Shown: piece after piece, positions 21,361 through 42,463 of the stretch
Layout: every line of letters starts with the position of its first letter
How positions within the stretch are numbered: position 1 is the stretch's first letter
IMG/VR virus record: IMGVR_UViG_3300033182_000812
Coordinates: 1 to 43,702 of that record
Reading direction: 5' to 3' (one strand)
DNA length: 43,702 nucleotides
From: a virus
The notes under the pieces: generated by a model
What the model saw: the letters and a program-made list of their open reading frames with translations, nothing else
What the model was told of the DNA's origin: nothing
Database searches by the model: none
Translations under genes and position numbers: made by a program

Positions 21361-22678
21361 AGGAATTGTAATCTTCGGTGCTACTGGAGATTTATGTAAG
21401 AGGAAACTTATTCCAGCATTACATCAACTTTGGTTGAAGGATCTTCTTCCAAATAACTTTTTGATTACTGGTTGTGCCAGAAGAGCACCAACTGCATCAC
21501 AATGGAAAGAATCTCTTGGAGAATATCCAGAAGAGTTTCTTCATCACTTGGATTATGTTTCTGCTGATTTAGATAATGTGGAAAGTTTAAAGAACCTTCC
21601 AGATTATCTTGACGATATGACTTACTTTCTTTCTGTTCCACCAGAAAGGTATGCTAATGCAATCACCAATCTTAAAGAGGCAGGTAAGTTAGATGACCCA
21701 GAAAAAACCAGGGTGGTTATCGAAAAACCCTTTGGATACGATTATAAATCTGCTGATTCTCTACAATCTGTGGTTTCTAGACATTTACGCGAGAAACAAG
21801 TCTATCGCATTGACCATTATCTTGGTAAAGATACTGTTAATAACATACTTGCTACTCGCTTCAGTAATATTCTTCTGGAACCACTTTGGAATCGCCAGTA
21901 CATAGAAGAGGTACAGATCTTTGCGACCGAAACTATTGGTTGCGAGGGTCGTTCACAGTATTATGATACTGCTGGTGCGGTTCGTGATATGCTTCAAAAT
22001 CACATTTTACAGGTGCTTGCTCTCGTAGCAATGGAAGCACCTTGCCGTATGGACGCTAGGGAGGTTCGCCGTGAAAAAACAAAAGTCCTTGCCGCCACAA
22101 GGATGGGACAAGACGCCATCTTCGGTCAGTACATTGGTTATCGTGATGAGGACGGTGTTGATCCTCAGTCTAATACTCCTACCTTCGTCGCTGGTTCTTT
22201 ATATGTCGATAACTGGCGTTGGGAGGGAGTTCCTTTTCGCGTATTAACTGGTAAGTGTATGCCTTATCAGTGTGTGGAAGTTGTTATCAAATTCAAAGCA
22301 CCTCCACAACAATTGTTTGAGGGTGAGGTGAATGATCGTATTGTAATGAGACTTCAACCACATGCACACCTTGACATCATGATGGATATTAAAACTCCTG
22401 GTATGGGGGAAGGAGTAGAACCAGCAACACTCACTCACAGATATCCTGATTGGTTGGGTGTTGACGGATATGAGAAACTTCTTTATGATGCGATTGAAGG
22501 AGACCAGTCTCACTTTGTTCATGCCGATGAAGTTATGGAGTCTTGGAGAATCGTAGATGACCTTTTATGCACTGGTGACAAGTGTCCGATTAGAACGGTT
22601 CCTTTCATCTATCATAAAGGTCTTTGGGGACCACAGCACAAGACAGACCAAATTACTAAGTGGGATTATCCAGCATGA
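21338..22678 (+). CDS. zwf: Glucose-6-phosphate 1-dehydrogenase
   Basis: The frame is open from 21242, but conserved sequence begins near ATG 21338 (MEMEPLTKGIVIFGATGDL), giving 446 aa. The nucleotide-binding GATGDLCKRKLIPAL is at 13-27. EKPFGYD and RIDHYLGKDTV (catalytic His region) mark the substrate site. It produces 6-phosphogluconolactone and NADPH, the step before Gnd. The host OpcA cofactor is not encoded here. The stop overlaps the next tiny gene by ATGA. Confidence 0.92.
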   Translation: MEMEPLTKGIVIFGATGDLCKRKLIPALHQLWLKDLLPNNFLITGCARRAPTASQWKESLGEYPEEFLHHLDYVSADLDNVESLKNLPDYLDDMTYFLSVPPERYANAITNLKEAGKLDDPEKTRVVIEKPFGYDYKSADSLQSVVSRHLREKQVYRIDHYLGKDTVNNILATRFSNILLEPLWNRQYIEEVQIFATETIGCEGRSQYYDTAGAVRDMLQNHILQVLALVAMEAPCRMDAREVRREKTKVLAATRMGQDAIFGQYIGYRDEDGVDPQSNTPTFVAGSLYVDNWRWEGVPFRVLTGKCMPYQCVEVVIKFKAPPQQLFEGEVNDRIVMRLQPHAHLDIMMDIKTPGMGEGVEPATLTHRYPDWLGVDGYEKLLYDAIEGDQSHFVHADEVMESWRIVDDLLCTGDKCPIRTVPFIYHKGLWGPQHKTDQITKWDYPA

Positions 22679-24676: not shown

Positions 24677-24900
24677 AAACCCTGGTGGAGTCATCCCTAA
24701 TAAATGCCCGTCACGGATGGACGAAAACAGCACTGGTCGGTGAAGGATCCCCTTCAATCCCGAGTCTTGGAATGACTTAAATCTTACCCTGGTGTGGATG
24801 GGGAAACCCCGCCCAGTTTCTTGCTTCTGGTTAAAGAGCAAGTGGCGAGCACTGGAGAGCGCAACTCCCACCCCTTGACCTAGGGGGATTTATATGTTAC
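24677..24900 (+). ncRNA. Gene-free, hairpin-rich stretch: candidate structured RNA
   Basis: No convincing reading frame lies on the + strand; a minus-strand frame here lacks any support. The stretch is less AT-rich than its surroundings and has several local stems: GAAGG-ATCC-CCTTC, GGGG-AAA-CCCC and TTGCT...AGCAA. GTCATCC near the start can pair either with GGATGGAC about 25 bases on or with GGAATGACTT about 75 bases on, so two alternative folds are possible. I do not recognise a known RNA family. It could be a phage non-coding RNA or the leader of the downstream gene. Confidence 0.35.
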
Positions 24901-26584: not shown

Positions 26585-26611
26585 GGGGGTTGCATAAACC
26601 CCTCTTTTTTT
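26585..26611 (+). terminator. Terminator hairpin containing a -35 box
   Basis: The stem GGGGGTT/AACCCCT has loop GCATA, followed by C and a T7 tract. TTGCAT of the following promoter covers the stem-loop junction. Confidence 0.8.
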
Positions 26612-26618
26612 GTATAAT
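26590..26618 (+). promoter_or_regulatory. Early promoter of the glycan operon
   Basis: TTGCAT (26590-26595), 17 bases, TATAAT (26613-26618), 26 bases before the first glycan gene. No other clear promoter was seen until 39.3 kb, so it may drive the whole cluster. Confidence 0.75.
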
Positions 26619-26643
26619 ACATACTATAGAGTTTTTATTTTTG

Positions 26644-27693
26644 ATGGGTCAGTATGTTAAGAAGGCACTCGTTCTGGGTGCTGGTGGTTTCATTGGAAGT
26701 CATATGGTTAAACGTCTTCGTTCAGAAGGCTACTGGGTGCGTGGTGTAGATCTTAAGCGTCCAGAGTATTCTCCCACTGAAGCAAACGAATTCGTTCGGG
26801 GAGATCTTCGTGATGAAGATTTCGTTCGTCGTGTTCTTGAATACAAGGGAGACCGAGGCAACTTCTATAATTCAGTTCCTTATCGCTATATCCAACCTTT
26901 TGATGAGATCTATCAGTTCGCTGCTGATATGGGTGGTGCAGGTTTCGTTTTCACTGGAGAGAACGATGCAGACATCATGCACAACTCTGTTACCATTAAT
27001 TTGAACGTTCTTGAAATGCAACGTCAGATGAATGAAAGAGTTGGTAAGAATGTAACTAAGATTTTCTATTCTGGATCTGCTTGCATGTATCCAGAGCACA
27101 ATCAACTGGATCCTGATAACCCTGACTGCCGTGAAGAATCCGCATACCCCGCTAACCCCGATTCTGAATATGGATGGGAAAAACTATTCTCTGAGCGCCT
27201 TTATTTTGCATACCATCGCAATTATGGTATTCCTGTTCGTGTTACCAGGTATCATAATATTTTTGGTCCAGAAGGAACCTGGGACGGTGGAAGAGAGAAG
27301 GCACCAGCTGCAATCTGCCGTAAAGTCGCTCTCCTCCCAGAGGACGGTGGATCCATTGAGGTGTGGGGAGACGGCCTACAAACTCGTTCCTTCCTGTACA
27401 TTGACGAATGCATTGAAGCGTCTAGACGATTGATGGACTCTAACTTCATTGGACCTGTGAATATTGGTTCTGAGGAGATGGTCACTATCAACCAACTGGT
27501 AGACACTGCTGCTCGTGTTGCAGGTAAGAACGTAGAGAAGAATCATATTGATGGTCCTCTGGGTGTTCGTGGACGTAACTCCAACAATGATGTAGTTCGT
27601 AGGGAACTCGGATGGGATTATTCCCAGACTCTTGAGGAAGGTATTCGTAAAACTTACACTTGGATTCAAGAACAAATTCGTAAGAGTGCTTGA
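26644..27693 (+). CDS. GDP-mannose 3,5-epimerase-like sugar epimerase
   Basis: The frame extends upstream into the promoter; ATG 26644 gives 349 aa. The Rossmann motif GAGGFIGSHMVKRLR is at about 11-25. The catalytic SGSACMYPE ... YGWEKLFSE supplies the S and Y-x-x-x-K triad, and RYHNIFGPEGTWDGGREKAP is characteristic of GDP-mannose 3,5-epimerase. By family it forms GDP-L-galactose from GDP-mannose; a related 4,6-modifying activity cannot be excluded. It is the first gene of the glycan operon, making the activated sugar for the downstream transferases. Confidence 0.8.
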   Translation: MGQYVKKALVLGAGGFIGSHMVKRLRSEGYWVRGVDLKRPEYSPTEANEFVRGDLRDEDFVRRVLEYKGDRGNFYNSVPYRYIQPFDEIYQFAADMGGAGFVFTGENDADIMHNSVTINLNVLEMQRQMNERVGKNVTKIFYSGSACMYPEHNQLDPDNPDCREESAYPANPDSEYGWEKLFSERLYFAYHRNYGIPVRVTRYHNIFGPEGTWDGGREKAPAAICRKVALLPEDGGSIEVWGDGLQTRSFLYIDECIEASRRLMDSNFIGPVNIGSEEMVTINQLVDTAARVAGKNVEKNHIDGPLGVRGRNSNNDVVRRELGWDYSQTLEEGIRKTYTWIQEQIRKSA

Positions 27694-27698
27694 TTAGT

Positions 27699-28529
27699 AT
27701 GCGGAAAAAAATCAATCTAGTTGACAGTACCTTCAGTCATTTGACTGGAGGTCTTCTTCCTGAACCGAATAAAGGGTATTCTGTTCACGCCAAAGTATCA
27801 AATTATATTGAGTGGGTTACTGATGGTAGTGGGGAAGGTATCTTCTATACCGATGCCAGAATTCCAGAAGCATTTGGTGATAACTCAGATCAACCAAAGT
27901 ATGCATGGATTCTTGAGTCCGAATCAATTAACCCTGCCCTTGCACAATGGTTTGAGAATAATCTTGACAAGTGTCTAGAGAAGTTTGATATGATTTTTAC
28001 ATATCAAACCAAGTATCAGAACATCAGTCCCAAGATTAAATGGTGTGCTGCTCAGGGTTACTGGATTAAAGATCCTAGGGTTTGTGATAAAACCAAGATG
28101 ATCTCCATGATTGCAAGTAATAAAAACTTCTGCAAAGGACATGCAGACAGACTCAAGTGGGTGGAGCGACTAAAGGATCAAGTTGATTTTTATGGTGCTG
28201 GAACCAAGTGGATTGATTACAAAGAAGAAGGCCTTTGTGATTATATGTTCTCCATTGCAATTGAGAACGGACAGGTTGGTGGATACTTCACTGAGAAACT
28301 CCTAGATTGCTTTGCTACTGGCACAATTCCAGTCTATATGGGTGCTCCAGACGTTGGAGACTTCTTTAATAAGGATGGAATTATTGATTTGACCGAAGAG
28401 TTTTATATTTCTGATGAACTCTACTACAGTAAGATGGATGCAATCCTAGAGAATTTAGAAAAGACAAAACAGTTTGATGTTCTTGAAGACTTTATCTATT
28501 TGAATTATTTGAAAGATATCTATGAGTAA
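27699..28529 (+). CDS. GT10-type (alpha-1,3-fucosyltransferase-like) glycosyltransferase
   Basis: ATG 27699 gives 276 aa. The C-terminal half has FSIAIENGQVGGYFTEKLLD followed by CFATGTIPVYMGAP (about 187-220), the GT10 donor-site motif (E-N ... Y-x-T-E-K-L ... G-x-x-P-x-Y-x-G-A-P). No membrane anchor is present, so it is a soluble cytoplasmic enzyme. It probably transfers fucose or a similar 6-deoxyhexose from its GDP form, consistent with the GDP-sugar epimerase upstream. It overlaps the next gene by eight bases. Confidence 0.78.
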   Translation: MRKKINLVDSTFSHLTGGLLPEPNKGYSVHAKVSNYIEWVTDGSGEGIFYTDARIPEAFGDNSDQPKYAWILESESINPALAQWFENNLDKCLEKFDMIFTYQTKYQNISPKIKWCAAQGYWIKDPRVCDKTKMISMIASNKNFCKGHADRLKWVERLKDQVDFYGAGTKWIDYKEEGLCDYMFSIAIENGQVGGYFTEKLLDCFATGTIPVYMGAPDVGDFFNKDGIIDLTEEFYISDELYYSKMDAILENLEKTKQFDVLEDFIYLNYLKDIYE

Positions 28530-28860
28530 GAAGTATATTTTTGATCTAGATCATACTCTCTGCGATACTAAGAAGGGGGAGGATGGTAAATGGGATTACT
28601 ATAATGCAGTCCCATTTTATGATAGAATAGAAGTTGTTAACTCACTGTGGGAAAGTGGAAACACTATAGTCATAGAAACTGCAAGAGGTTGTGGATCTAA
28701 AATCAATCATTATGTTGAGACTTTTGATCAACTTCGCTCCTGGGGACTTAAGTTTCATACACTTAGAACTGGTGTAAAATTTTCTGCTGATTATTATATT
28801 GACGATAAAGCGATAAACTCTGAGGATTTCTTCAATGGCAAGTCTACAATCTCTGATTAA
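28522..28860 (+). CDS. HAD-family phosphatase, capsule-biosynthesis type
   Basis: A 112-aa short HAD protein. FDLDHTLCDT (7-16) is the nucleophile motif I. IVIETARGCGSK holds the motif II Thr region. YYIDDKAINSEDF near the end is motif IV. It has no cap domain, like small HAD enzymes found in polysaccharide clusters that remove phosphate from sugar or alcohol phosphates. Substrate unknown. It overlaps the next gene by 26 bases. Confidence 0.72.
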   Translation: MSKKYIFDLDHTLCDTKKGEDGKWDYYNAVPFYDRIEVVNSLWESGNTIVIETARGCGSKINHYVETFDQLRSWGLKFHTLRTGVKFSADYYIDDKAINSEDFFNGKSTISD

Positions 28861-31324
28861 AAAGTCTCCTTCTTTTGTTCAAAAGGTCTACTACGATCTG
28901 GTTCCATTCTCTAAGAGGTATGGAAAAGTTTTCAATGAGACCTATGACTTTCTTCTTGAGAGTGAAAAGTGGAGTAGAGAGAAACTAGAAGAGTATCAAC
29001 TTCAGGAGTTTAAGAAGTTGATACAGCACTGCTATGAGAATGTACCTTATTATACTCGGGTCTTTAATGATAGGGGATTGACTCCTGATGATTTTCAATC
29101 CTTGTCTGACGTTACTAAACTTCCTTTTCTTACCAAAGACATCATCAGAGAGAATCTCAATGATTTGATTGCCACAAACATGAGAGATCAAAAGTCCTAT
29201 GAGTTTAGGACTAGTGGGTCTACTGGTAAGAAGTTGGTCTTTTATGGCACTGATGAGGCATATAAAAAAGAAGCAGCATTTGTCCTTAGGGCATATGAAA
29301 AGCACGGAGCAAAACTCTATGACGAACCAAGTGTTTGGTTGCGTAGATATGTGCCTGTAGATAGAGATTCTGACCTTTGGTATTATGACTATGAGTTGAA
29401 GCGACTTTATATGTCTGCTTATCACTTAAATGATAATACTATTCAGGAGTATGTTGATACAATCAATAAGAAGAAGTATCATACTCTTGTTGCTTATCCT
29501 TCTAGCATCTATGTTCTTGCTTGTCTGTGTGAAGAGCATGGTTTGAAACTCAAGCACATTAAAAAGATTCATGTGTCTTCTGAGATGATGCTGCCTGAGT
29601 GGAAGCGAAAGGTTGAAGAAGTATTTGGTATTGTCCCAGTTGCACACTATGGTGCGATTGAAAAGGTCTGCTTCATGAATCAACTTGAAGATAGTGACAA
29701 GTATTATGAGAATCTCCAGTATGGTGTCACTGAATATCTTGACGATGGAAATGGTAATCACACAATCGTTGCCACTGGATTCTTAAACTACTACATGCCC
29801 TTTCTCAGATACAAGACTGAGGATAGTGTTGTGCTGAATCCTGATGTTGGTGACTTTGATAAGGTATTGTCTATCAATGGAAGGACCAGTGATATTCTGA
29901 TTTCAGAAGATGGGTCTAGACTCCCTGGTGTTAACTTCTATAGTTGGATTGATAAAAGAGTTCCTGGAGTTTCAATGTTCCAGATTGTCCAGAAGAACAG
30001 AAAGGACATCGTTTTTAGTTTTGTTGGAAGTCAAAGGTATAGTGAAGAGACTATTCATCAGATTCGTGAAGGCTTGACCTCTAGACTTGGCAATCTTAAT
30101 TTTACTATTAATAAGGTAAGGGAGATTAAGAGAAACGAATCTACAGGAAAGATTAGGTGCATTGTCAATGACATTTTGAAGAAGACTTCTAGTAAGGAAT
30201 TATACAATCAGTTGTATGACCTGAAGAAACAGAATGGTACTCACTCACCAAGCATCAATACAATTATTGAAAACATTCCTGAGATTCAGTGTAATATTGA
30301 TGCCTGCTTCTTGAGTAATCCTTATGCCACAGACTTATTCCTCAAGAAATTCAATGAGGATTTGATTGTTCCCAATAACATTAGAAACTATCTGGAGTTG
30401 TATCCTCAACAAAACAAATTTGTTTCTAAGAAGATCTCTGATTATATTGGTGTTCCTTCTGAGAATATCTTGGTTGGTAATGGTGCCATTGAGATTATTG
30501 AGAAAGTCATGAATAATATGACTGGCAAGATGTTGTTGGGTCTTCCCACATTCTCCTCTTACTATGAATTCAATAAGGAATGTGAAATTATTCAGAGTGA
30601 AAAGCAACTTCTTACTTCCGATGATGTAATCTCTGAAATCAATCGGACACAATCAAATAATCTTCTTCTAGTTAATCCTAACAATCCTACAGGACATTAC
30701 ATTCCAAAGGATCAACTTAGAGTGATTCTTGAAAATCTAAAGCATCTTGACACGATCATTGTTGATGAAAGTTTCATTCACTTCTCAACAAAAGAAAATC
30801 CAAACTCAACATCCGTTGGTGATTTGGCTACTACTTATCCTAACCTTGTAGTTATTAAGAGTATGTCAAAGGATTTTGGTATTGCTGGAATCCGATGTGG
30901 ATATGCTATAATGTCTAAGGATAAAGTTGCGTATTCTATTGATAAAGGATTCCTTTGGAATTCTAATGGTATCTCCGAATACTTCTTCAGTCTCCTCTCT
31001 GACAAGCAGTTCATTGAAGAATATGAGAAAACTCGCATTCAGTTCTTGAATGAGTTTGATGAATTCTATGAGCAACTAAAGACCATCAATGCTATTGAAG
31101 TCTATCCTTCTAAAACTAATTTCTTCCTCATTGACCTTAAGACTAAGAAGTCATTTGACTTTGTGTGTTGGATGTTGATTGAAAAGGGAATCTATGTTAG
31201 GAGTATGGACGACAAGATTGGAATGGGAATTGACACTGATACGTTTGTCAGAATTGCTGGAAAGACCCAAGAGGAAAACAACTACATAGTAAAGTCTATT
31301 AAAGAATTTGTTGGTGACTCTTAA
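28835..31324 (+). CDS. Fusion of PaaK/CapK-like adenylate-forming enzyme and HisC-like aminotransferase
   Basis: An 829-aa protein. Residues 1-440 match phenylacetate-CoA ligase/CapK proteins: phosphate-binding RTSGSTGKKLVFYG (about 125-138), HYGAIEKVC, GRTSDILI. Residues about 490-829 form a class I/II PLP aminotransferase like histidinol-phosphate aminotransferase: NPNNPTGHY, DESFIHF, and SMSKDFGIAGIRCGYA with the PLP lysine at about 679. The linker (445-485) is polar. CapK-type proteins are usual in glycan clusters; fusion to an aminotransferase suggests activation or attachment of an amino acid or amino-sugar decoration. The coupled chemistry is inference. Confidence 0.78.
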   Translation: MASLQSLIKKSPSFVQKVYYDLVPFSKRYGKVFNETYDFLLESEKWSREKLEEYQLQEFKKLIQHCYENVPYYTRVFNDRGLTPDDFQSLSDVTKLPFLTKDIIRENLNDLIATNMRDQKSYEFRTSGSTGKKLVFYGTDEAYKKEAAFVLRAYEKHGAKLYDEPSVWLRRYVPVDRDSDLWYYDYELKRLYMSAYHLNDNTIQEYVDTINKKKYHTLVAYPSSIYVLACLCEEHGLKLKHIKKIHVSSEMMLPEWKRKVEEVFGIVPVAHYGAIEKVCFMNQLEDSDKYYENLQYGVTEYLDDGNGNHTIVATGFLNYYMPFLRYKTEDSVVLNPDVGDFDKVLSINGRTSDILISEDGSRLPGVNFYSWIDKRVPGVSMFQIVQKNRKDIVFSFVGSQRYSEETIHQIREGLTSRLGNLNFTINKVREIKRNESTGKIRCIVNDILKKTSSKELYNQLYDLKKQNGTHSPSINTIIENIPEIQCNIDACFLSNPYATDLFLKKFNEDLIVPNNIRNYLELYPQQNKFVSKKISDYIGVPSENILVGNGAIEIIEKVMNNMTGKMLLGLPTFSSYYEFNKECEIIQSEKQLLTSDDVISEINRTQSNNLLLVNPNNPTGHYIPKDQLRVILENLKHLDTIIVDESFIHFSTKENPNSTSVGDLATTYPNLVVIKSMSKDFGIAGIRCGYAIMSKDKVAYSIDKGFLWNSNGISEYFFSLLSDKQFIEEYEKTRIQFLNEFDEFYEQLKTINAIEVYPSKTNFFLIDLKTKKSFDFVCWMLIEKGIYVRSMDDKIGMGIDTDTFVRIAGKTQEENNYIVKSIKEFVGDS

Positions 31325-31327
31325 GTT

Positions 31328-32551
31328 ATGAATATTAGTTTTATTGGATTGGGAAAACTTGGATTACCTCTTGCATGTTGCTTAGCAGAATCAGGTAATA
31401 AAGTTCTTGGTATTGATAAGAATCAATACTTCATTAATAAACTGAATAACAAAGAACTTCCATTCTTTGAACCAGGGCTTGATGAGATTTTTCCTAGTCC
31501 AAATCTAATTGGATTTACTGATTCATACGAAAGTATTTTTTCAGATACTGACGCCACCATTATCTTGGTAAACACCCAAGATCAAAATGGTGGATATTCT
31601 TCTTTAATTGTAGAGAAAGTATTAGAAGAGTTCTCTCAGTATCTTAAGGAATCGGATAAAGATTATCACCTTGTAGTTCTTTCCTCTACTGTTCTTCCTG
31701 GGACTATCAATAAACTTATTAGTTTGATTGAGGAGATCTCTGGTAGAAAGTATGGTGAGGGGTTTGGATTCTCATACGTTCCTGACTTTGTTAAGTTGGG
31801 TAATGTGATTCAGGATTTCAAAAACCCTGAGTTCTTTATGATCGGATCTAATAATGAAAGAGATTTTTCTCTGACTAAATCCATTTGGCATACTTTCCAT
31901 GCTAACAATCCACCAGAAAGAAGTCTGACTCTTGAGGAGTCCGAGGTTGCTAAGGTGGCACTGAATGGTTATCTTGTCCATAAGATTACCTATGCAAACT
32001 TCTTAGGTGAACTTTGCAACGGAATGGAAAATGTTGATGTTCACAATATCACAAAGACCATTGGACTTGACAAACGAATCTCTCCATATTTCTTTGGGTA
32101 TGGTACTCCATACGGTGGAACTTGTTTTCCTAGGGACACGACAGCATTCATTAAGTTCTCAGAAGACAGAGGAAAGACCGCCAAGCATCTGCTGTTTGCT
32201 GAAGAAGTAAACGAGATGGTCTATGATAGTATTGTTGAAAACTTGCAACAATACAATAAGATTTCTATTCTTGGTATTTCATTTAAACCAAACTCTCCAG
32301 TTACTGTTGGATCTCCATCAGTTAGACTTCTGAGTATGCTAGAAGGAAAAGAAATTTTATGTCATGATTACATTGACGAGACATTTGAGAACTTACAGAT
32401 ATTTCAAAACCTAACTGTCAATAAGTATGATGATGTCCAGAAATGTCTTGATGATTCTGAAGTTGCAGTGATAATGCATCCAGATAAAAGATATGCTGAG
32501 TATGATTATTCAAATGTTAATGTAGTTGATTACTGGGGAGTTATAAAATGA
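31328..32551 (+). CDS. Nucleotide-sugar 6-dehydrogenase (UDP-glucose/GDP-mannose dehydrogenase family)
   Basis: A 407-aa protein. NAD-binding GLGKLGLPLACCLAESG is at 7-23. The central ESEVAKVALNGYLVHKITYAN helix bears the conserved Lys and Asn. The active-site Cys lies in YGGTCFPRDT (about C266), and the C-terminal domain carries GISFKPNSPV. It oxidises an NDP-hexose to the uronate. Whether it uses UDP- or GDP-sugars cannot be read. It overlaps the FkbM gene by ATGA. Confidence 0.88.
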   Translation: MNISFIGLGKLGLPLACCLAESGNKVLGIDKNQYFINKLNNKELPFFEPGLDEIFPSPNLIGFTDSYESIFSDTDATIILVNTQDQNGGYSSLIVEKVLEEFSQYLKESDKDYHLVVLSSTVLPGTINKLISLIEEISGRKYGEGFGFSYVPDFVKLGNVIQDFKNPEFFMIGSNNERDFSLTKSIWHTFHANNPPERSLTLEESEVAKVALNGYLVHKITYANFLGELCNGMENVDVHNITKTIGLDKRISPYFFGYGTPYGGTCFPRDTTAFIKFSEDRGKTAKHLLFAEEVNEMVYDSIVENLQQYNKISILGISFKPNSPVTVGSPSVRLLSMLEGKEILCHDYIDETFENLQIFQNLTVNKYDDVQKCLDDSEVAVIMHPDKRYAEYDYSNVNVVDYWGVIK

Positions 32552-33291
32552 ACAGAACTGTAAGAAAGGTACTGAAGAATTTTCTTGATGAGAATGACAA
32601 GATTAAAGTACCAGAGAAACTTGACCGAGTGCTACTTGATATCGGCACTTCATACAATGCACCACACTCTCATGTGTGGACTAAAGAGACTGAAGATGTA
32701 TGTGTCTTTGCATTTGAACCAAACCCATTCAATCTTGAATGTGTAAAGTCTGGTAGGTGGTTAAATTCTTCCTGGCAGAATCCAATTCAACTAAATCCTG
32801 GTGTTCTTGGCAAAAAGGTTTTTCTTGTTGAATGTGCTCTGTCTGATGGAGACCCAAGATCCCTTGACTTCTATTGTGCTAAAGAAGATCCAGGAACTTC
32901 AAGCCTCTACAAACCAACCTATCTTGACGTTGACGAGAAAGTTCAGGTTCCAGTAATTTCACTGAAGTATTTCTTTGATCTGTTTCCTTGGGAGACCATT
33001 CCTTTCATTGAGCATGTGAAGATTGATGCACAGTCTTCTGATTTCAATATTGTAAAAGGTATGGGAGACTATATTAACAAGGTATTGTATCTTACTGTTG
33101 AATGCAATACTATTGATGATAACAATGTTCAGCAGTATGAAAATCCAGATGAAGATCCTGCCATGATGAAAGAGTACATTGAATCCTTTGGATTTGAATG
33201 TAAGAGATGGGGAAACAATGGAGTTTTCTATAACACAAACATGAAAGATTTGTGGGACGAGTTTGAATATTACTTCCTTGAAAGAGACTGA
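32548..33291 (+). CDS. FkbM-type methyltransferase
   Basis: A 247-aa protein. LLDIGTSYN (SAM-binding motif I) is followed by FAFEPNPFNL (motif II, acidic end), then VPVISLKYFFD and IEHVKIDAQSSDFNIVKGMG, the ordered motifs of the FkbM family, which O-methylates sugars. It fits methylation of a sugar in the phage-specified glycan. It is coupled by ATGA to the dehydrogenase and lies two bases from the next gene. Confidence 0.78.
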   Translation: MNRTVRKVLKNFLDENDKIKVPEKLDRVLLDIGTSYNAPHSHVWTKETEDVCVFAFEPNPFNLECVKSGRWLNSSWQNPIQLNPGVLGKKVFLVECALSDGDPRSLDFYCAKEDPGTSSLYKPTYLDVDEKVQVPVISLKYFFDLFPWETIPFIEHVKIDAQSSDFNIVKGMGDYINKVLYLTVECNTIDDNNVQQYENPDEDPAMMKEYIESFGFECKRWGNNGVFYNTNMKDLWDEFEYYFLERD

Positions 33292-33293
33292 TC

Positions 33294-34154
33294 ATGTCTG
33301 TTTACTTGACTACAAATACGGATGGATGGGACACTGAAGGTATTGGGTGTATATGTCAGTGGAACCTTTTATTGTTTTGTATCTCTAAAGATCTAGGAGT
33401 TAATCTTTCCATCCCTCCATACAAAAACATTGCACACTATAATTACACTTCATACTCTTCCGAGGAATGGAGTGGATCTTTTACTAAGTTCTTTAATTTT
33501 CCATATGAAACGAACTTTGACATTGAGTATGAGTTCAATGGTTCTTATGAAGATTTAAAAGTATTTGTTGAGGATAATAAAAACAAAGAAGAGAAGATTT
33601 TAGTCAATGTCCCTAAGATGTTCATTGTTGATCATGGGCAAAGTAATATCAATCGTTTCTTTGAGAAGCAGTATTTGAAAGAAATCAGAGATGGCCTTCA
33701 AGTTGATGGTACTTATTTTGAAGATGGTGTAGTGAATATATCTCTTCATATACGATCTAATAATGCAAATGATACAGACTTCTCAAACTTTAGAGAAGCA
33801 TTCGGAAGACATATTGATTCAACTAAATTCAAAACTTTGATTGGTGAATTGATTGGAAAGCATAAAGATGAACAAGTTCATTTGCATATCCACTCACAGG
33901 GGCAGATTGAGAACTTTTATGATATAATGGAACTATCTACAGAAAGTTTCAACATCACTTGTCATTTGAATGATCATCCAACAAAAGACATATACCATAT
34001 GTCTCATGCAGATTATTTGATTATGGCAAACAGTTCTTATAGTTGGATCTGTCACTTACTGAGTGGTAATCCAACTTATGTTAGGGATAACTTCTGGCAT
34101 TCTGTATATCCAAATGCTGTGTTCTTAGACTCAAATTATCAAATAAAATTATGA
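33294..34154 (+). CDS. Probable glycosyltransferase (fucosyltransferase-like fold), 286 aa
   Basis: NISLHIRSNNANDTDFSNF (about 148-166) resembles the H-x-R motif of GT11/GT23-type fucosyltransferases, though the usual R-R-G-D is degenerate (I-R-S-N). MSHADYLIMANSSYSWICHL (about 238-257) matches the C-terminal donor-site motif of GT11 proteins. No membrane segment is present. The overlap with a true GT11 gene downstream (ATGA) suggests ancient duplication. It may be an active transferase with altered specificity. Confidence 0.6.
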   Translation: MSVYLTTNTDGWDTEGIGCICQWNLLLFCISKDLGVNLSIPPYKNIAHYNYTSYSSEEWSGSFTKFFNFPYETNFDIEYEFNGSYEDLKVFVEDNKNKEEKILVNVPKMFIVDHGQSNINRFFEKQYLKEIRDGLQVDGTYFEDGVVNISLHIRSNNANDTDFSNFREAFGRHIDSTKFKTLIGELIGKHKDEQVHLHIHSQGQIENFYDIMELSTESFNITCHLNDHPTKDIYHMSHADYLIMANSSYSWICHLLSGNPTYVRDNFWHSVYPNAVFLDSNYQIKL

Positions 34155-35062
34155 TTTGTTACGATAGACTTGGTAGTAACGGAAGACTCGGCAATCAGAT
34201 GTTTCAGTATGCAGCACTTCGTGGTATTGCTGCTAACCGAAACTTTGATTGGTGCATTCCTCCAGAAGGATTTCCTTCACTAACAAACTATGGATTGTAT
34301 GATGCATTCAAACTGAAGAATCTTACTGAGAAAAATGTAGGAGTACTGAATCCTATTATCTCTAAGCAAGAGCAATTCAGTTTTTATAATCTTGCAAGTG
34401 CAAATAGAAATGTAAGGAATCGTATTGAGAGGTCTTATGAATTTGATGAAGATCTTTTCAATAATGTAGAGGATAATACAAACATTGATGGATTCTTTCA
34501 GTCAGAAAAATACTTCAAACATATTGAATCTGAGATTCGTGAAGACTTTGAGTTTGTGGATGGGATTCTAGAACCATGTAAAGAGTTCATGAAGCAGTTC
34601 TCTGAAGTTGTCTTTCTTCATGTCAGACGTGGTGATAATGTTGGTAGAGAAGATCTCTGTAGGATTCCTAAACTTGAAGGTTACTATGCTGATGCTCTGA
34701 CTCGTTTCAGTGATACTGCTGCGGTGTTGGTTTGCAGTGATGATATTGAGTGGTGCAAGGAACAATCCTTCTTCAATGATGAACGGTTCTTCCTTTCGGA
34801 AAACAATGAGAGATATAACTTCAAGTGTCTTGATGGTGATAATGTTCTTCGTAACTCTACCATCCCTTATGTTGATCTCTGCTTGATGAGTCTTTGTAAT
34901 GGCGGAATCATTCCAACCAGCACCTTGAGTTGGTGGGGTGCCTATTTGCAAAAAGATAGAACCAATCCCATAATTGTTCAAGACCCCTGGTTCGGTCCCA
35001 CTCTTGCATATAACAACACTAAGGATCTTATTCCTAGTGATTGGATTAAACTTTCCTGGTAA
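34151..35062 (+). CDS. GT11 alpha-1,2-fucosyltransferase-like (copy 1)
   Basis: A 303-aa protein. RLGSNGRLGNQMFQYAALRG (N-terminal motif of GT11), VFLHVRRGD (about 156-164, the H-x-R-R-G-D donor-binding motif), and PYVDLCLMSLCNGGIIPTST with LSWWGAYL near the C-terminus. It transfers L-fucose in alpha-1,2 linkage to galactose, as in H-antigen synthesis, by family. A second copy lies at 37631. The sugar donor could come from host GDP-fucose or the epimerases here. Confidence 0.88.
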   Translation: MICYDRLGSNGRLGNQMFQYAALRGIAANRNFDWCIPPEGFPSLTNYGLYDAFKLKNLTEKNVGVLNPIISKQEQFSFYNLASANRNVRNRIERSYEFDEDLFNNVEDNTNIDGFFQSEKYFKHIESEIREDFEFVDGILEPCKEFMKQFSEVVFLHVRRGDNVGREDLCRIPKLEGYYADALTRFSDTAAVLVCSDDIEWCKEQSFFNDERFFLSENNERYNFKCLDGDNVLRNSTIPYVDLCLMSLCNGGIIPTSTLSWWGAYLQKDRTNPIIVQDPWFGPTLAYNNTKDLIPSDWIKLSW

Positions 35063-35079
35063 ATTAATTTAGGTTTCTT

Positions 35080-35811
35080 ATGAAAATTTGTGTAATTACA
35101 ATTGCAACTGGAAGGTATATCCAGTTCGTAGAAAAACTTCTTGAGTCTATTGAGAACAACTTTTTAGTCGGTCATGATATCAGTTGCCTTCTGTTCACTG
35201 ATAATGATTTGGAAGAGGCATCAGATAACATTAAAGTCAGTAAGATTGAGCATAAGACTTGGCCCGAACCAGCACTGAAAAAGTATAATTACATTTACTC
35301 TGAGCGAGAGTATCTCAAGCAGTTTGACTATACTTATTTGTTTGATGCTGATGTCTACTTTGTGGACAAGGTTGCAGATGAGGTTCTTGGAGATCTGGTT
35401 GGTGTAATCCATCCATATAAGGTGCTTGAGGATAAGTCTGTATATCCTTATGAAGCAAGGAAAGAGTCTACTGCTTATGTTCCTGATGCTGACAGAAGTA
35501 AGTACTATGCCGCAGCATTTGCTGGTGGTAAGTCTGAGAAGTTCTTGGAGATGGCAAAGACTATTTCTGAACGAGTATCTGAAGATGAGAAGAATGGTAT
35601 CGTTGCAGTATGGCATGATGAAAGTCATCTGAACAAATACTTCAATGAGAATCCTCCGAAGGATCTTTCTCCAAGTTATATGTTCCCTGAGGAACTGGTA
35701 AATCATCCAAACTATCCTTGGAAACCCAAACTGATTGCTGTCAACAAGGATGCTTTTGATACTTCATTCAATCAAGAGAAGCGGGAACTGAATCAATACG
35801 GCAATATTTGA
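35080..35811 (+). CDS. GT6 glycosyltransferase, histo-blood-group ABO type
   Basis: A 243-aa protein. WPEPALKKYNYI, YLFDADVYFVD (D-x-D-type site, about 86-96), PYEARKESTAYVP, YYAAAFAGG and VWHDESHLNKYF (about 176-187) reproduce in order the signature segments of the ABO/alpha-1,3-galactosyltransferase family. It transfers Gal or GalNAc in alpha-1,3 linkage with retention, usually onto a fucosylated galactose. It lacks a membrane anchor. Two GT11 genes in the same operon could make the acceptor. Confidence 0.88.
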   Translation: MKICVITIATGRYIQFVEKLLESIENNFLVGHDISCLLFTDNDLEEASDNIKVSKIEHKTWPEPALKKYNYIYSEREYLKQFDYTYLFDADVYFVDKVADEVLGDLVGVIHPYKVLEDKSVYPYEARKESTAYVPDADRSKYYAAAFAGGKSEKFLEMAKTISERVSEDEKNGIVAVWHDESHLNKYFNENPPKDLSPSYMFPEELVNHPNYPWKPKLIAVNKDAFDTSFNQEKRELNQYGNI

Positions 35812-35812
35812 T

Positions 35813-36529
35813 ATGAAAATCAACCTGAGAAATTTAAATACTTACTACATCAATCTTGATGAGAAGGAAGAAAGGAGAAGGTCTGTTGAGTATACTCTGA
35901 ATAGACTCAACTTCTCTTCTGTTACCAGAATCTCTGGTGTTAAGTGTGATGATGGTAAAGTCGGATGTGCTAGATCTCAGCATAAAGTATTATCTGATAC
36001 CTCAATTCAAACTCCATTCTTGTTAATGGAAGATGATTGTTTGTTCACTGGTAACTCTGACTTTGAAATTGAAGTTCCTGATGATGCTGACGCTCTGTTC
36101 ATTGGAGTGTCACAGTGGGCAAGGTATTTGAATTTCTCTGGTCCATTTTTGCATTATAGGAAAGTTGATGATAAAATAGTCCAGGTATACAATATGTTAT
36201 CTGGACATGCTGTAATTTATTTGACTGAAGAGTATAGACAAGTTTGTTCTCGCATTTCAAAGTACTGTGGTTATCAACTTATGGACCACATGGATAATGG
36301 ATATGCAGAGATTCAAAAATACTATAATGTGTACTCTTTAGACATGCCAATCTTCAAACAGAATGGACATAATGGTGGAGTAACATCAACTAGAATTACA
36401 GAAATGGGAATGGATATTTCTCAAGCAGACAAGTTTTTTGATAATGTTAAATACAATTTAGGTAGTCTTCAGGGAGTTCCTGATCTGAACAACTGCCTGA
36501 GTACTTATTATCCATCCAAGATTGTTTAG
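35813..36529 (+). CDS. GT25-like glycosyltransferase
   Basis: A 238-aa protein. YYINLDEKEERRRSVEYTL (about 11-29) and KVGCARSQHKVL (about 50-61) are the first two motifs of LPS/GT25 galactosyltransferases. FLLMEDDCLF (about 69-78) provides the E-D-D donor/metal site. Family members add galactose or glucose to LPS or glycans. It lies one base after GT6. Confidence 0.72.
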   Translation: MKINLRNLNTYYINLDEKEERRRSVEYTLNRLNFSSVTRISGVKCDDGKVGCARSQHKVLSDTSIQTPFLLMEDDCLFTGNSDFEIEVPDDADALFIGVSQWARYLNFSGPFLHYRKVDDKIVQVYNMLSGHAVIYLTEEYRQVCSRISKYCGYQLMDHMDNGYAEIQKYYNVYSLDMPIFKQNGHNGGVTSTRITEMGMDISQADKFFDNVKYNLGSLQGVPDLNNCLSTYYPSKIV

Positions 36530-36531
36530 TT

Positions 36532-36783
36532 ATGATTAGAAGATTGAGAATAGCACTTTGGCATGTTGTTGCAGAGTTGGAGTACATTCTCTATCCATGG
36601 AAAGATGGAGACCGTCCATCTGCAGAAACGATATCTAGGTATAATCTTCCAGAAGAAAGTTATGATGATCGTCTTTACTATTATGATTGGATAAAAAGTC
36701 AAGATCAAAAAATACAAAAGATAGAAGAAGACATTATCTTTTTAATTGATAAGATTAATCAAATTGAGGAAATTCAAAAATGA
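36532..36783 (+). CDS. Small hypothetical protein in the glycan operon, 83 aa
   Basis: A short hydrophobic amphipathic start (RRLRIALWHVVAELEYILYP) is followed by a Tyr/Asp-rich middle and a C-terminal coiled-coil-like helix (KIQKIEEDIIFLIDKINQ). It may be a membrane-associating helper of the transferases. It overlaps the next gene by ATGA. No family is recognised. Confidence 0.55.
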   Translation: MIRRLRIALWHVVAELEYILYPWKDGDRPSAETISRYNLPEESYDDRLYYYDWIKSQDQKIQKIEEDIIFLIDKINQIEEIQK

Positions 36784-37634
36784 AAATTGCAGTATTAGGT
36801 TCTGGTGGCCAGATCGGTGCCTATCTAACAGAGTATCTACGTGAAAAAGGTCACAAGGTTCATGAGTTTGATGTTGTCAATGGTGAGCATCAAGACCTGA
36901 CTACAATCCCCAATCCAGAACTCCATCGTGTCATTATGGATTCTGATTTTGTATTCTTCCTCGCATTTGATGTGGGTGGTTCTAGGTATCTGAAGAAGTA
37001 TCAGCATACTTTTGACTTTATTAATAACAATACTCGCATTATTGCAAACGTATTTGGTCTTCTTGAGAAGTACAATAAAAGATTTGTCTTCGCATCATCT
37101 CAGATGAGTAACATGTCTTATTCTCCTTATGGTGTGATGAAGCGTGTTGGTGAACTTTATACCACTGCACTGAAAGGACTGACTGTTAAGTTCTGGAATG
37201 TCTATGGTATTGAGAAGGACCATGAGAAGGCCCACGTCATTACAGACTTTATCCGTAAAGGATTTGAAGAGGGTGAGTTTGAGATGATGACTGATGGTAC
37301 AGAAGAACGTCAGTTCCTGTATGCAGAAGATTGCTGTGAAGCACTTGAGACCATCATGGAGAACTATACGGACTTCAAACCAGAAGATCCTCTTCACATT
37401 ACATCATTCCGTTCCACATCCATTAAAGATGTTGCTGGGATTATTCAGGGTCAATTCAATTTGATCGGTAGGCATGATGTTAAGATTAAACCTGGTCTTG
37501 CAAAGGACAGTGTTCAACTTGATAAGAGAAACGAAGCAGATAATTATATCGTTAATTGGTGGATGCCAAAAACTACCATTGATGCTGGTATTGCAAAAGT
37601 GTTTAATGAAATGAAAAAGGAGTATGAAGAATGA
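36780..37634 (+). CDS. NAD-dependent sugar epimerase/dehydratase (extended SDR)
   Basis: A 284-aa protein. The Rossmann motif GSGGQIGAYLTEYL is at 7-20. The catalytic Ser region FASSQMSN and the SPYGVMKRVGE Y-x-x-x-K pair (about 119-125) are present, with FWNVYGIEK next. The C-terminal substrate-binding part has ERQFLYAEDCCEAL. It is shorter than typical 4,6-dehydratases. It probably acts on a nucleotide-activated sugar used by the operon. It overlaps the second GT11 by ATGA. Confidence 0.8.
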   Translation: MKIAVLGSGGQIGAYLTEYLREKGHKVHEFDVVNGEHQDLTTIPNPELHRVIMDSDFVFFLAFDVGGSRYLKKYQHTFDFINNNTRIIANVFGLLEKYNKRFVFASSQMSNMSYSPYGVMKRVGELYTTALKGLTVKFWNVYGIEKDHEKAHVITDFIRKGFEEGEFEMMTDGTEERQFLYAEDCCEALETIMENYTDFKPEDPLHITSFRSTSIKDVAGIIQGQFNLIGRHDVKIKPGLAKDSVQLDKRNEADNYIVNWWMPKTTIDAGIAKVFNEMKKEYEE

Positions 37635-38479
37635 TCGGTTTTAATCATCTTGGCAATCTTGGTAGACTCGGCAATCAAATGTTTGAGTTTGCTGCTCTTC
37701 GTGGTATTGCAGAGAAGCATGGATATGATGTTTGTATTCCTCCCAAAGAACATCAGGGAATTGAAAACTATAGTTTGCACAAGTGCTTCTATTTGGATCA
37801 CATTCCAACTGGATTCGTAGAAGCGGAAGCATATATTCAGGAAGAATATTTTCACTTTAATGAAAAGATTTTTGAACAGTGTCCTGACAACATAAGTCTT
37901 TATGGATTCTTTCAGTCTGAGAAATACTTTGCTCATGCTGCAGATACTATCAGGAAGGACTTTACTTTCCATGATGATATTGTCGCACCCTGCCATGAGT
38001 TTATGAAGGGTTTTGTGAATGAAGAACCTATCATGCTTCATGTTCGTCGTGGGGATCCTAACCTGACTGATCCTCGTGGATTCAAATGGTCTTATACCCA
38101 GTGCAGTGATCAGCACCCCGTACAACCGCTTGCATACTACGATGAGGCACTTTCGCACTTTGATGACGAGCAACCCGTAATCGTCTTCTCAGACTCTCCT
38201 GAGTGGGTTAAGGAGCAAGAGTTCTTTGCTGATGATAGGTTCATGATCTCGGAACCACAAGAGAAGTATAAGGATGGTTCATATACTCCTTACACTGATT
38301 TGTGCTTGATGTCTATGTGTTCTCATGCTATAATTGCGAATAGTTCTATGAGTTGGTGGGGTGCTTGGTTGCAGTCCAATCCAAACAAAAAGGTGATTGC
38401 ACCTAAGATGTGGTTTGGACCTGCCTACGCTGACAAAGACACTAAAGATTTGTACTGTAAAGACTGGATTGTTGTTTGA
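37631..38479 (+). CDS. GT11 alpha-1,2-fucosyltransferase-like (copy 2)
   Basis: A 282-aa paralogue of the gene at 34151. NLGRLGNQMFEFAALRG, LYGFFQSEKYFAH, IMLHVRRGD (donor motif) and IIANSSMSWWGAWL are all in place. Divergence between copies is substantial, so they may use different acceptors. The codon use of the middle (38040-38200) is richer in C/G than the 27-36 kb genes, perhaps a different history. Confidence 0.88.
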   Translation: MIGFNHLGNLGRLGNQMFEFAALRGIAEKHGYDVCIPPKEHQGIENYSLHKCFYLDHIPTGFVEAEAYIQEEYFHFNEKIFEQCPDNISLYGFFQSEKYFAHAADTIRKDFTFHDDIVAPCHEFMKGFVNEEPIMLHVRRGDPNLTDPRGFKWSYTQCSDQHPVQPLAYYDEALSHFDDEQPVIVFSDSPEWVKEQEFFADDRFMISEPQEKYKDGSYTPYTDLCLMSMCSHAIIANSSMSWWGAWLQSNPNKKVIAPKMWFGPAYADKDTKDLYCKDWIVV

Positions 38480-39261
38480 TGGACAAGAATAAATCTGCTT
38501 ATAAACTCAAAGGTATTCCACCCATCTACTACCTCAATCTAGATGGTCAAGAAGATCGTAAGATCTACATGGAATCTCAAATGAAATATTGGGAGATTGA
38601 AAATTACGAACGTATCTCGGCATATGATGGACGTAATGATGATCTGAGCGATATTATCAAGGGTAAGTATCCAGATAATATGACTTCTGGTGAGATTGGT
38701 TGTACCACTTCTCACTTGAAGGCCATCAAACATTGGATGGAAACATCGGATTCTCCATGTGCAATCTTCATGGAAGATGATGTTGATCTCCAGATAGTTA
38801 AGAATTGGGATTTTACCTGGAGAGATTTCTATGGTCTGGTTCCCTATGACTATGATGTAATCCAACTAGCAATCATTTGTACTGGACCTCTTCACGTGTC
38901 CTTGCATAAGAGGTTTGTGAATGACTTCTCTACTGCAGCATACATGATTACTCGTCATCATGCAGAAAAACTACTGAAGTATCATGTTCGTGGTGACAAG
39001 TATAAATTGGATAATGGAGTGAAACCCAGAGCAGTGGCAGATGATCTTATCTATAACTCTGGTAATACATTCTCCATTCCCCTGTTCCTCTACAGAATTG
39101 CTTTGGGATCATCAATTCACCCAGAGCATGTAGATGTGTTTCATCGTAGTAGTCATGATGGTCTCTTGGAGTTCTGGCAGCAGAATGGACCTAACCTTAA
39201 GATCAATGAATTGATGGAATATAATCCATATTTGGGAAGAATTACAGAAAACAATGAGTAA
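38479..39261 (+). CDS. GT25-like glycosyltransferase, second type
   Basis: ATG 38479 overlaps the previous stop by one base (260 aa). IYYLNLDGQEDRKIYMESQM, GEIGCTTSHLKAIKHWM and CAIFMEDDVDL give the three ordered GT25 motifs including the E-D-D site. VNDFSTAAYMITRHHAEKLL follows the family plan. It is closer to classical LPS galactosyltransferases than the 35813 gene. It is the last gene of the glycan operon, 30 bases before the terminator. Confidence 0.75.
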   Translation: MDKNKSAYKLKGIPPIYYLNLDGQEDRKIYMESQMKYWEIENYERISAYDGRNDDLSDIIKGKYPDNMTSGEIGCTTSHLKAIKHWMETSDSPCAIFMEDDVDLQIVKNWDFTWRDFYGLVPYDYDVIQLAIICTGPLHVSLHKRFVNDFSTAAYMITRHHAEKLLKYHVRGDKYKLDNGVKPRAVADDLIYNSGNTFSIPLFLYRIALGSSIHPEHVDVFHRSSHDGLLEFWQQNGPNLKINELMEYNPYLGRITENNE

Positions 39262-40515: not shown

Positions 40516-40887
40516 ATGATCAAATCCGCATTCGCAGCACTCGCCGCTGCTCCCCTTTTCGCTGGTGCTGCAATGGCAGGACCCTACGTTAACGTTGAAG
40601 CCAACTCTGGTTTCACTGGTTCGGACTACACTGGTACGACCACCGATCTTCATCTGGGTTATGAGGGTCCTATCGGTGAATCCTCTTCCTACTATGTTCA
40701 GGCAGGAGCTTCTGTCGTCTCCCCTGACGGTGGCGAGGTTGACACCGTTCCTTCGGGCAAGGCAGGTCTGGGCGTTGCTCTGACCGATAGGGTTGGTGCA
40801 TACGGCGAAGTTTCGTTCGTTGGTTCTGGCGTTGCTGGTGTTGACCGTTCCTACGGCACCAAAGCAGGCGTTAAGTGGACCTTCTGA
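40516..40887 (+). CDS. Exported small porin-like/outer-membrane beta protein (copy 1)
   Basis: A 123-aa protein. A signal peptide at 1-21 (IKSAFAALAAAPLFAGAAMA) ends A-M-A before GPYVNVE. The mature part has alternating polar/apolar strands, DLHLGYEGPI, SSYYVQAGASVVSPDGGE, GLGVALTDRVGAYGEV, and ends in aromatic Phe (VKWTF), the outer-membrane barrel signature. It is paralogous to the gene at 41102 (same SPDGG/TPDGG and TD motifs). It is probably inserted in the host envelope; the function is unknown. Confidence 0.68.
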   Translation: MIKSAFAALAAAPLFAGAAMAGPYVNVEANSGFTGSDYTGTTTDLHLGYEGPIGESSSYYVQAGASVVSPDGGEVDTVPSGKAGLGVALTDRVGAYGEVSFVGSGVAGVDRSYGTKAGVKWTF

Positions 40888-41101: not shown

Positions 41102-41458
41102 ATGAAAGCAATCGCTCTTGCCGCCCTGGCAATTCCTATGGTGACGGCACCTGCCCTTGCTGGCCCCTACGTCTCCACCAAGTCCGAGTTTAAGTTCTCT
41201 GATGCCAACTACAAAGAGGCAGTAAATCAGGCACGTCTAGGATACGACTGGAAAGTTGGTGCTCTGAAACCCTATGTTGAACTGGGCGGTGGTGCCAAGA
41301 CCCCTGACGGTGGTGATTCTAAAGGTTTTACTGCTGCTGAAATTGGTACTGGCATCAAACTGACCGACGAACTCTCTGCCAAACTGAAGGCGGAAGCAAC
41401 TCAAACTTCTGGTAAGACCAGTTGGAAAGCAGAACTCAGCACCAAGTATCGTTTCTGA
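41102..41458 (+). CDS. Exported small porin-like/outer-membrane beta protein (copy 2)
   Basis: A 118-aa protein. The signal peptide KAIALAALAIPMVTAPALA (1-20) is cleaved before GPYVSTK. Beta-type repeats follow: ARLGYDWKVGALKPYVELGG, KTPDGGDSKGFTAAEIGTGI, KLTDELSAKLKAEATQTS, WKAELSTKYRF with terminal Phe. AAAGGAAA precedes the ATG. It is paralogous to 40516. It lies 21 bases before pstS and behind the Pho-box-like repeats, so it probably serves phosphate acquisition in the host outer membrane. Confidence 0.7.
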   Translation: MKAIALAALAIPMVTAPALAGPYVSTKSEFKFSDANYKEAVNQARLGYDWKVGALKPYVELGGGAKTPDGGDSKGFTAAEIGTGIKLTDELSAKLKAEATQTSGKTSWKAELSTKYRF

Positions 41459-41479: not shown

Positions 41480-42463
41480 ATGAAAAAAATTCTCGCTGCT
41501 GTTGGTGTCGTCGCTCTAGGTGGCACCCTTGTTGCTTGCGGATCTGCTCCTAACGATACCGCAAAAGCACCCTTCACTTTGAATGGTGCAGGGGCTACGT
41601 TCCCTGCCATGTTGTACCAGAACTGGTTTCAGTCCTTTGCTAAGGACACTGGTAACCAAGTGAACTACCAGGCAGTTGGTAGTGGTGCTGGTGTTCGCCA
41701 GTTCACTGCCAAGACTGTTGACTTCGGTGCCTCTGATGGTGCCGTCAAGGACAGTAAGCAACCTGCTGGAGGTATGGTTCACATCCCCATGACTGGTGGT
41801 GCAATTGTCCCTGCCTACAATCTGCCTGGTTGTGATGTCAAGATGACTCAGACTCAACTTGCAGATGTCTTCCTTGGCAAAATCACTAACTGGTCTACTT
41901 TCGGTTGTGCTGATAAGCAAATTGCTACCGTCCATCGCTCTGATGGAAGTGGCACTACCAAAGGTTTCACCAATTCTCTGTCTGCATTCTCTCCTGAATG
42001 GAAAGAGAAAGTTGGAACTGGTAAAGCAGTGAAATGGCCCGTTGGTATTGGTGCAAAAGGTAACTCTGGTGTTGCCGCACAAATCAAAAACACCCCTGGT
42101 TCTATTGGTTATGTGAACTATGGATATGTAAAGCAGGGTCTACAACAAGTTGCTATTCAAAACAAGGCTGGTAACTATGTAAAAGCATCCGCTGAAACTG
42201 CTTCTGCAGGACTTGGTGAAATTGTTCTTGACGATCAGTTGCGTGGTGCTGATGCTAACCCCGCAGGTGAAAATGCTTATCCTATCGTCTCCCTGACTTG
42301 GATTCTTGCATACCCTGAGTATGAAAAGAATGGTGATGTGAAGGAGGTACTGCGTTACGCATTGACTCCTACTCAACAGGCAAAGGCAGACTCTCTTGGA
42401 TATGTACCTCTTCCAGAGGATCTACGTCAGAAAGCACTTGCTGCTGTTGACACTCTAAAATAA
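41480..42463 (+). CDS. pstS: Phosphate ABC transporter substrate-binding protein
   Basis: A 327-aa protein. The lipoprotein signal has lipobox LVAC (C20). NGAGATFPAMLYQNWFQSF (34-52), YQAVGSGAGVRQF and VHRSDGSGTTKGFTNSLS are the ordered phosphate-ligand segments of PstS. It binds periplasmic phosphate and feeds the host PstCAB transporter, which matters for DNA-rich phage progeny. It is behind the porin-like gene and Pho-box-like repeats; a terminator follows. Confidence 0.95.
   Translation: MKKILAAVGVVALGGTLVACGSAPNDTAKAPFTLNGAGATFPAMLYQNWFQSFAKDTGNQVNYQAVGSGAGVRQFTAKTVDFGASDGAVKDSKQPAGGMVHIPMTGGAIVPAYNLPGCDVKMTQTQLADVFLGKITNWSTFGCADKQIATVHRSDGSGTTKGFTNSLSAFSPEWKEKVGTGKAVKWPVGIGAKGNSGVAAQIKNTPGSIGYVNYGYVKQGLQQVAIQNKAGNYVKASAETASAGLGEIVLDDQLRGADANPAGENAYPIVSLTWILAYPEYEKNGDVKEVLRYALTPTQQAKADSLGYVPLPEDLRQKALAAVDTLK

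Follow-up and report, generated by a model that had tools for sequence, protein, structure and literature searches.

A cyanophage glycan gene cluster joins GT11 and ABO-family GT6 glycosyltransferase genes to a predicted GDP-L-galactose donor gene

Results

Glycosyltransferase genes of the array

We analyzed a viral DNA stretch of 43,702 nucleotides (IMG/VR record IMGVR_UViG_3300033182_000812, positions 1–43,702; hereafter referred to as the window), which is a 43.7-kb genome fragment with the gene content of a cyanomyovirus. Its positions 26590–39261 hold an array of glycan-related genes, all on one strand (+), composed of uninterrupted and mostly overlapping open reading frames (ORFs). A first-pass annotation of this DNA had described two GT11 genes flanking a complete GT6 gene with ABO-type signature segments, and an additional GT10 gene; profile matches and ORFs confirmed all of these. 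GT11a (34151–35062, 303 amino acids) lies immediately 5′ of GT6 (35080–35811, 243 amino acids), GT11b (37631–38479, 282 amino acids) belongs to the epimerase-GT11-GT25 end at the 3′ side, and GT10 (27690–28529) is located upstream. The array also includes genes for a nucleotide-sugar dehydrogenase, an FkbM methyltransferase, an epimerase and a GT25 protein. All of the profile matches of GT11a, GT11b, GT6 and GT10 were far over the cut-offs. Because near-identical copies occur in other contigs, among them the independent contig L012 (98–99% for GT6 and both GT11s), we regard GT11, GT6 and GT10 as real genes and not chance ORFs.

The GT6 product matched PF03414 with an E value of 4e-41 (141 bits; cut-off 25), and its best PDB matches were the human ABO transferases (E 2e-36). 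The motifs DAD, H111-P, GG and WHDESHLN, the last with the catalytic Glu, are all present. By its DAD and WHDESHLN motifs, the enzyme is of the metal-dependent type as far as sequence predicts. The DXD type was found in 56 of 56 dereplicated viral GT6 sequences, and NXN in 45 of 80 bacterial hits. Alignment to human GTB gave donor-pocket residues 266–268 of A-A-A for the window, A-G-G for the Prochlorococcus phage P-SSM2 and Q-G-C for the Synechococcus phage S-CAM9. A published hypothesis holds that a glycine at 266 or 268 is needed for N-acetylgalactosamine (GalNAc) transfer (PMC4692239). Since A266 and A268 lack this glycine, the window GT6 is predicted to be of the galactose (Gal), or B, type, with GalNAc less likely. 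Thus, of the ‘A or B’ product proposed in the first-pass annotation, the B-type galactose became the likelier and the A-type GalNAc lost ground.

GT6 is widespread, as 71 phage records contain it and viral contigs with it number in the hundreds; in a quick tree the viral sequences clustered together, apart from most bacterial GT6. We rejected an animal origin of the phage gene; human GTB fell on a very long, unsupported branch near bacterial sequences, which is no evidence for it. Eight viral loci (L115, L120, L123, L126, L143, L155, L157 and L175) carry two GT6 genes each; in L115 and L155, where both sequences were compared, the paired genes have differing pockets, A-G-G and Q-G-C. The filamentous cyanobacterium Moorena bouillonii (L347/L418) has adjoining GT6 (DXD, pocket A-G-A) and GT11 genes in the same direction, and Moorena is the sole photosynthetic cyanobacterium among the named bacterial GT6 hits.

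The two GT11 products matched PF01531 (GT11a, E 8e-18, 65 bits; GT11b, E 6e-23, 82 bits; cut-off 23.9) and PHROG 2644 (3e-92 and 1e-106, respectively), and both contain HVRRGD, an instance of the HxRRxD motif of GT11. As a sequence search of the PDB with GT11 returned zero hits, we predicted the fold of GT11b instead. The model (pLDDT, the predicted local distance difference test score, 92) matched NodZ (Z 14.3), FUT8 (13.8), POFUT1 (13.8) and AtFUT1 (13.3), so that GT11b is modeled with the GT-B fold of the GDP-fucose type. We therefore place both GT11s in the fucosyltransferase superfamily, as transferases with GDP-sugar donors. The GT10 product resembles α1,3/4-fucosyltransferases (PF00852, E 2.7e-10, 40.6 bits, cut-off 23.9), its PDB match being a Helicobacter α1,3-fucosyltransferase (E 5e-9).

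A GDP-mannose 3,5-epimerase gene in place of GDP-fucose synthesis genes

The first gene of the array, which the first-pass annotation had overlooked, is an ORF at 26590–27693 (+; start codon uncertain). Its best PDB match was plant GDP-mannose 3,5-epimerase (GME; E 1.5e-83), the match to GDP-fucose synthetase being far lower (5e-19). GME and FCL are told apart by diagnostic residues, namely Cys, Lys and Arg in the former and Cys, His and Lys in the latter (PMC8787198). In alignments, the ORF has the GME catalytic Cys and Lys, the Cys-acidifying Arg and the Ser-Tyr-Lys of the SDR family, while the FCL set (His, Lys) was found in the FCLs of P-SSM2, DSL-LC02, ACG-2014f and S-SCSM1. The diagnostic residues thus identify the ORF as GME and not a GDP-fucose enzyme, and its predicted product is GDP-L-galactose. 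Its 3′ end overlaps the start of GT10, and overlap or adjacency of GME and GT10 recurs in S-T4, S-SM2 and Sf-CH5/8.

Neither GMD nor FCL was found within the window or in the loci of its close relatives (L010–L013), which have GME in their place; P-SSM2 has true GMD and FCL. The assumption of the first-pass annotation that the module works with fucose is therefore not borne out by the cluster itself. GME was found in 37 phage records, mostly labelled as UDP-glucose 4-epimerase or nucleotide-sugar epimerase; correction of these annotations is warranted.

To score the presence or absence of genes, we used loci with 10-kb flanks and tblastn thresholds, and for neutral sampling of clusters we used GT25 as the anchor, which gave 87 dereplicated clusters. 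GME occurred in 20 of these and GMD in 13, both together in none (p=0.034). Among 40 whole records, 18 had GME, 16 had GMD and two had both; the p value of 0.001 obtained from this set is biased, as its loci were drawn from different anchors. One of the two records with both routes is that of S-SCSM1, and locus L315 has fragments of both, so we weakened strict exclusivity of GME and GMD+FCL to a near-exclusive, ‘mostly alternative’ relationship. In the L315 record (G018; 110920–113706), a partial GME lies beside a GMD match that is split in two, and the donor pathway there may be in the course of decay or exchange.

GT11 was present in all 34 clusters of the 87-cluster sample that have a donor gene (p=0.011). 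The gene directly 3′ of FCL was GT11 in 22 of 44 cases, and that directly 3′ of GME was GT11 or GT10 in 19 of 73. In S-CAM9, S-8S55 and S-PRM1, GME, GT11 and GT6 are arranged head to tail without gaps. Fucosyltransferases including the α1,2 enzyme AtFUT1 accept GDP-L-galactose and can transfer L-galactose (PMC8787198). Because of this acceptance and the position of GME next to GT10 or GT11, the natural donor in the window may be GDP-L-galactose.

A wcaG cis-regulatory RNA (RF01761) was identified upstream of GME (24760–24856, +; cmscan 72.8 bits, gathering 42), with three small ORFs, none of them matching Pfam, in between. In L010, L112 and L023, the RNA directly precedes the donor gene (GME or GMD); it also lies just 5′ of the donor gene in L012 and 5′ of GMD in L025. 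Earlier work described wcaG RNAs in cyanophages and took them to be regulators, probably, of genes for exopolysaccharide or high-light functions (PMC2864571).

Association and order of GT11 and GT6

The GT6 loci of viral contigs and phage genomes have a recurring order of donor genes, GT11, GT6, epimerase and GT25. We considered the seemingly near-universal presence of GT11 in GT6 loci as evidence for an ABH module and rejected it, since with the GT25 anchor GT11 proved equally common without GT6: it occurred in 31 of 38 clusters with GT6 and in 47 of 49 without. Being as common in the latter, GT11 is a general component of cyanophage glycan clusters and not specific to GT6. GT11b was likewise dropped as a partner of GT6, as a GT11 right before GT25 is common in clusters that lack GT6. 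Gene order gave a different result. GT11 precedes GT6 in 47 of 58 clusters (shuffled expectation, 29.7; p=0.0005) and lies directly 5′ of it in 13 (expected, 6.7; p=0.014). The order bias supports the possibility that the GT11 and GT6 enzymes work one after the other.

Discussion

Comparison with known systems

The locus of P-SSM2 and P-SSM5 (PSSM2_257-271) resembles the window in having GT11 5′ of a DXD-type GT6 (52% identical to that of the window), a GT25-like gene after GT6, then an epimerase, GT25 and finally hli and ferredoxin genes. It differs in that GMD and FCL, the GDP-fucose route, replace GME, and in that the P-SSM2 pocket, A-G-G, is compatible with GalNAc. The Synechococcus phages S-CAM9, S-8S55 and S-PRM1 share with the window a single cluster of GME, GT11, GT6 and GT25, whereas their GT6 is only ~34% identical, with the Q-G-C pocket, and GT10 was not found in these loci. 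In the Synechococcus phage S-SCSM1, GMD, FCL, GME and an α1,2-fucosyltransferase were already noted by its authors (PMC9602691). Like the window, this phage has a wcaG RNA, which is annotated in its record; unlike the window, it has both donor routes and lacks GT6.

Two bacterial systems have been characterized. In the O-antigen cluster of Escherichia coli O86, a GT11 α1,2-fucosyltransferase makes the H structure and the GT6 enzyme WbnI makes B (PMC4202792). The O86 genes are biochemically proven; the phage has GME and lacks recognizable genes for unit export and polymerization. Measured against the O86 module, the window has GT11 and GT6 in an operon-like array, while GMD and FCL are absent from the cluster and GT11 shows no specificity for GT6. 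Bacteroides ovatus BoGT6a is, like the phage GT6, a small soluble catalytic domain (PMC3961637) and acts on 2′-fucosyl-lactose (PMC3961637); unlike the phage enzyme, it is of the NXN type, metal-independent and GalNAc-specific.

Possible products of the cluster

The donors, acceptors and linkages, the action of GT11 before GT6, the cellular target and the benefit are what we infer here from the genes. Our tentative preference, to which we give somewhat less than an even chance, is a glycan-remodelling cluster of a T4-like cyanophage (26590–39261, with the upstream wcaG RNA) that would be expressed in infection and would attach or modify short oligosaccharides, most likely on a host surface glycan (lipopolysaccharide or exopolysaccharide) and less likely on the virion. 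The GT10 and probably the GT11 enzymes would transfer an L-hexose to acceptors of the β-Gal/N-acetylglucosamine type; this would be L-galactose, or L-fucose if GDP-fucose is supplied by the host. GT6 would next add an α1,3-Gal. The resulting branched cap would have the shape of ABH-B, with L-galactose perhaps in the place of L-fucose. An extension that we hold to be rather doubtful is that two ABH-shaped caps arise by donor exchange, with an L-fucose form in the GMD+FCL lineages and an L-galactose form, which may be Gal-α1,3-(L-Gal-α1,2)-Gal or a GT10 product equivalent to it, in the GME lineages including the window.

Several points count against the L-galactose cap. GMD and FCL could sit elsewhere in the genome or the host could make GDP-fucose; GME may supply GT10 only; GT11 enzymes are not always α1,2-transferases, as HhFT2 is α1,3; and a shared acceptor for GT11 and GT6 is assumed. 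In addition, we make no claim that GT11 subfamilies are specialized by donor. The GT11 trees required 5–7 donor changes, but the neutral GT25 required 9 on matched loci; with 5 changes for GT11, 9 for GT25 and ~24 for shuffles, GT11 did barely better, and its sorting by donor is mostly cluster linkage.

The ABH-like module proposed in the first-pass annotation keeps its families, its clustering and a possible GT11-GT6 sequence, given the order bias, and is weakened by the equal frequency of GT11 without GT6. In its strict form, GT11 would add L-fucose and GT6 galactose to yield Gal-α1,3-(Fuc-α1,2)-Gal, GME would serve GT10 or another step, and GDP-fucose would be supplied by the host or by phage genes beyond the fragment. 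E. coli O86 uses the same two families, most GT6 cyanophages carry GMD+FCL beside GT11 and GT6, and GT11 tends to come first; with GME in place of GMD and FCL in the window and the L010–L013 loci, we consider this form unlikely, if far from negligible. Much the same, lowish probability attaches to a generic cluster in which GT11 and GT6 serve different acceptors or steps, make no ABH-like structure and co-occur through mere commonness. It would explain why GT11 is present in 78 of the 87 clusters whatever their GT6 status, is separated from GT6 by several genes in many clusters and went undetected, within the stretch covered, in 9 of 67 GT6 clusters; it sits less well with the order bias, the recurrence of overlapping GT11-GT6 pairs among divergent phages and the neighboring pair in Moorena. 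We regard it as quite improbable that the sugars go onto virion proteins of the phage itself (or onto its DNA) and not onto the host surface. No flippase, polymerase or lipid-carrier genes were recognized among the scanned cluster genes, and the sugars may go onto a cytoplasmic target, but cytoplasmic glycosyltransferases can also use host lipid-linked intermediates, and wcaG RNAs have an association with exopolysaccharide genes.

The novelty implied by the first-pass annotation did not survive a look at earlier work: two cyanophage GT6 genes were noted by 2014 (PMC3961637), GT6 is already annotated in the P-SSM2 record, and phage GMD, FCL, GME and fucosyltransferase genes were known earlier (PMC9602691). 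As far as the literature searched shows, what is new is the breadth of GT6, the control showing GT11 not to be GT6-specific, the alternation of donor routes, the GME-GT11-GT6 arrays and the L-galactose hypothesis. Under the ordinary reading, cyanophages carry ABO-family GT6 as a matter of routine, and the gene is common in marine virus data. If the L-galactose hypothesis is true, an ABH-like glycan is diversified in phages by means of a plant-type GME, and many ‘UDP-glucose 4-epimerase’ and ‘fucosyltransferase’ labels in cyanophages are wrong; if donor exchange is true, it constitutes a donor-switch system for viral surface-glycan variation. It becomes possible to test directly what the ‘LPS (lipopolysaccharide) genes’ of cyanophages build, a long-standing question, as the cultured S-PRM1 and P-SSM2 represent the two donor routes.

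Other genes of the array and its surroundings

The remaining genes of the array, all on the + strand, begin after GT10 with a small HAD-like phosphatase/kinase-type protein (28522–28860; PHROG 1238, 7e-20; PHROG 415, 7e-9) and an 829-residue fusion (28835–31324) with a C-terminal class I/II aminotransferase (PF00155, 9e-32, residues 524–822) and an N-terminal part that, read by eye only, is apparently a PaaK/CapK-like ligase. They are followed by a member of the UDP-glucose/GDP-mannose dehydrogenase family (31328–32551; PF03721/PF00984/PF03720; PHROG 9148, 2e-66) and the FkbM-type methyltransferase (32548–33291; PF05050, 1e-6). The protein encoded at 33294–34154 is possibly a third, divergent fucosyltransferase-like protein, with a likeness to GT11 in its C-terminal part only (hhalign 71%, E 3.6e-5, 44 columns; PF01531, E 0.05); its structure model was poor (pLDDT 53) and unfit for structure search.

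Directly 3′ of GT6 is a GT25-like protein (35813–36529; PHROG 24091, 1e-85, unknown function), which aligned with the cluster GT25 over its N-terminal 93 columns (hhalign 97%) and has counterparts after GT6 in both the window-type and P-SSM2-type phages. An 83-residue protein (36532–36783) is conserved in L010, L012 and L018 and had no family match in the PHROG search. Then come the NAD-dependent nucleotide-sugar epimerase/dehydratase (36780–37634; PF01370, 7e-25; PDB matches weak) and, after GT11b, the GT25 glycosyltransferase that ends the cluster (38476–39261, TTG start; PF01755, 1.7e-13; PHROG 2835, 2e-124).

Outside the array, the window encodes a phage glucose-6-phosphate dehydrogenase (zwf; 21242–22678). 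Two related small ORFs (40516–40887 and 41102–41458) resemble outer-membrane proteins and have signal-peptide-like starts; just 3′ of this pair lies a pstS-like gene (41480–42463).

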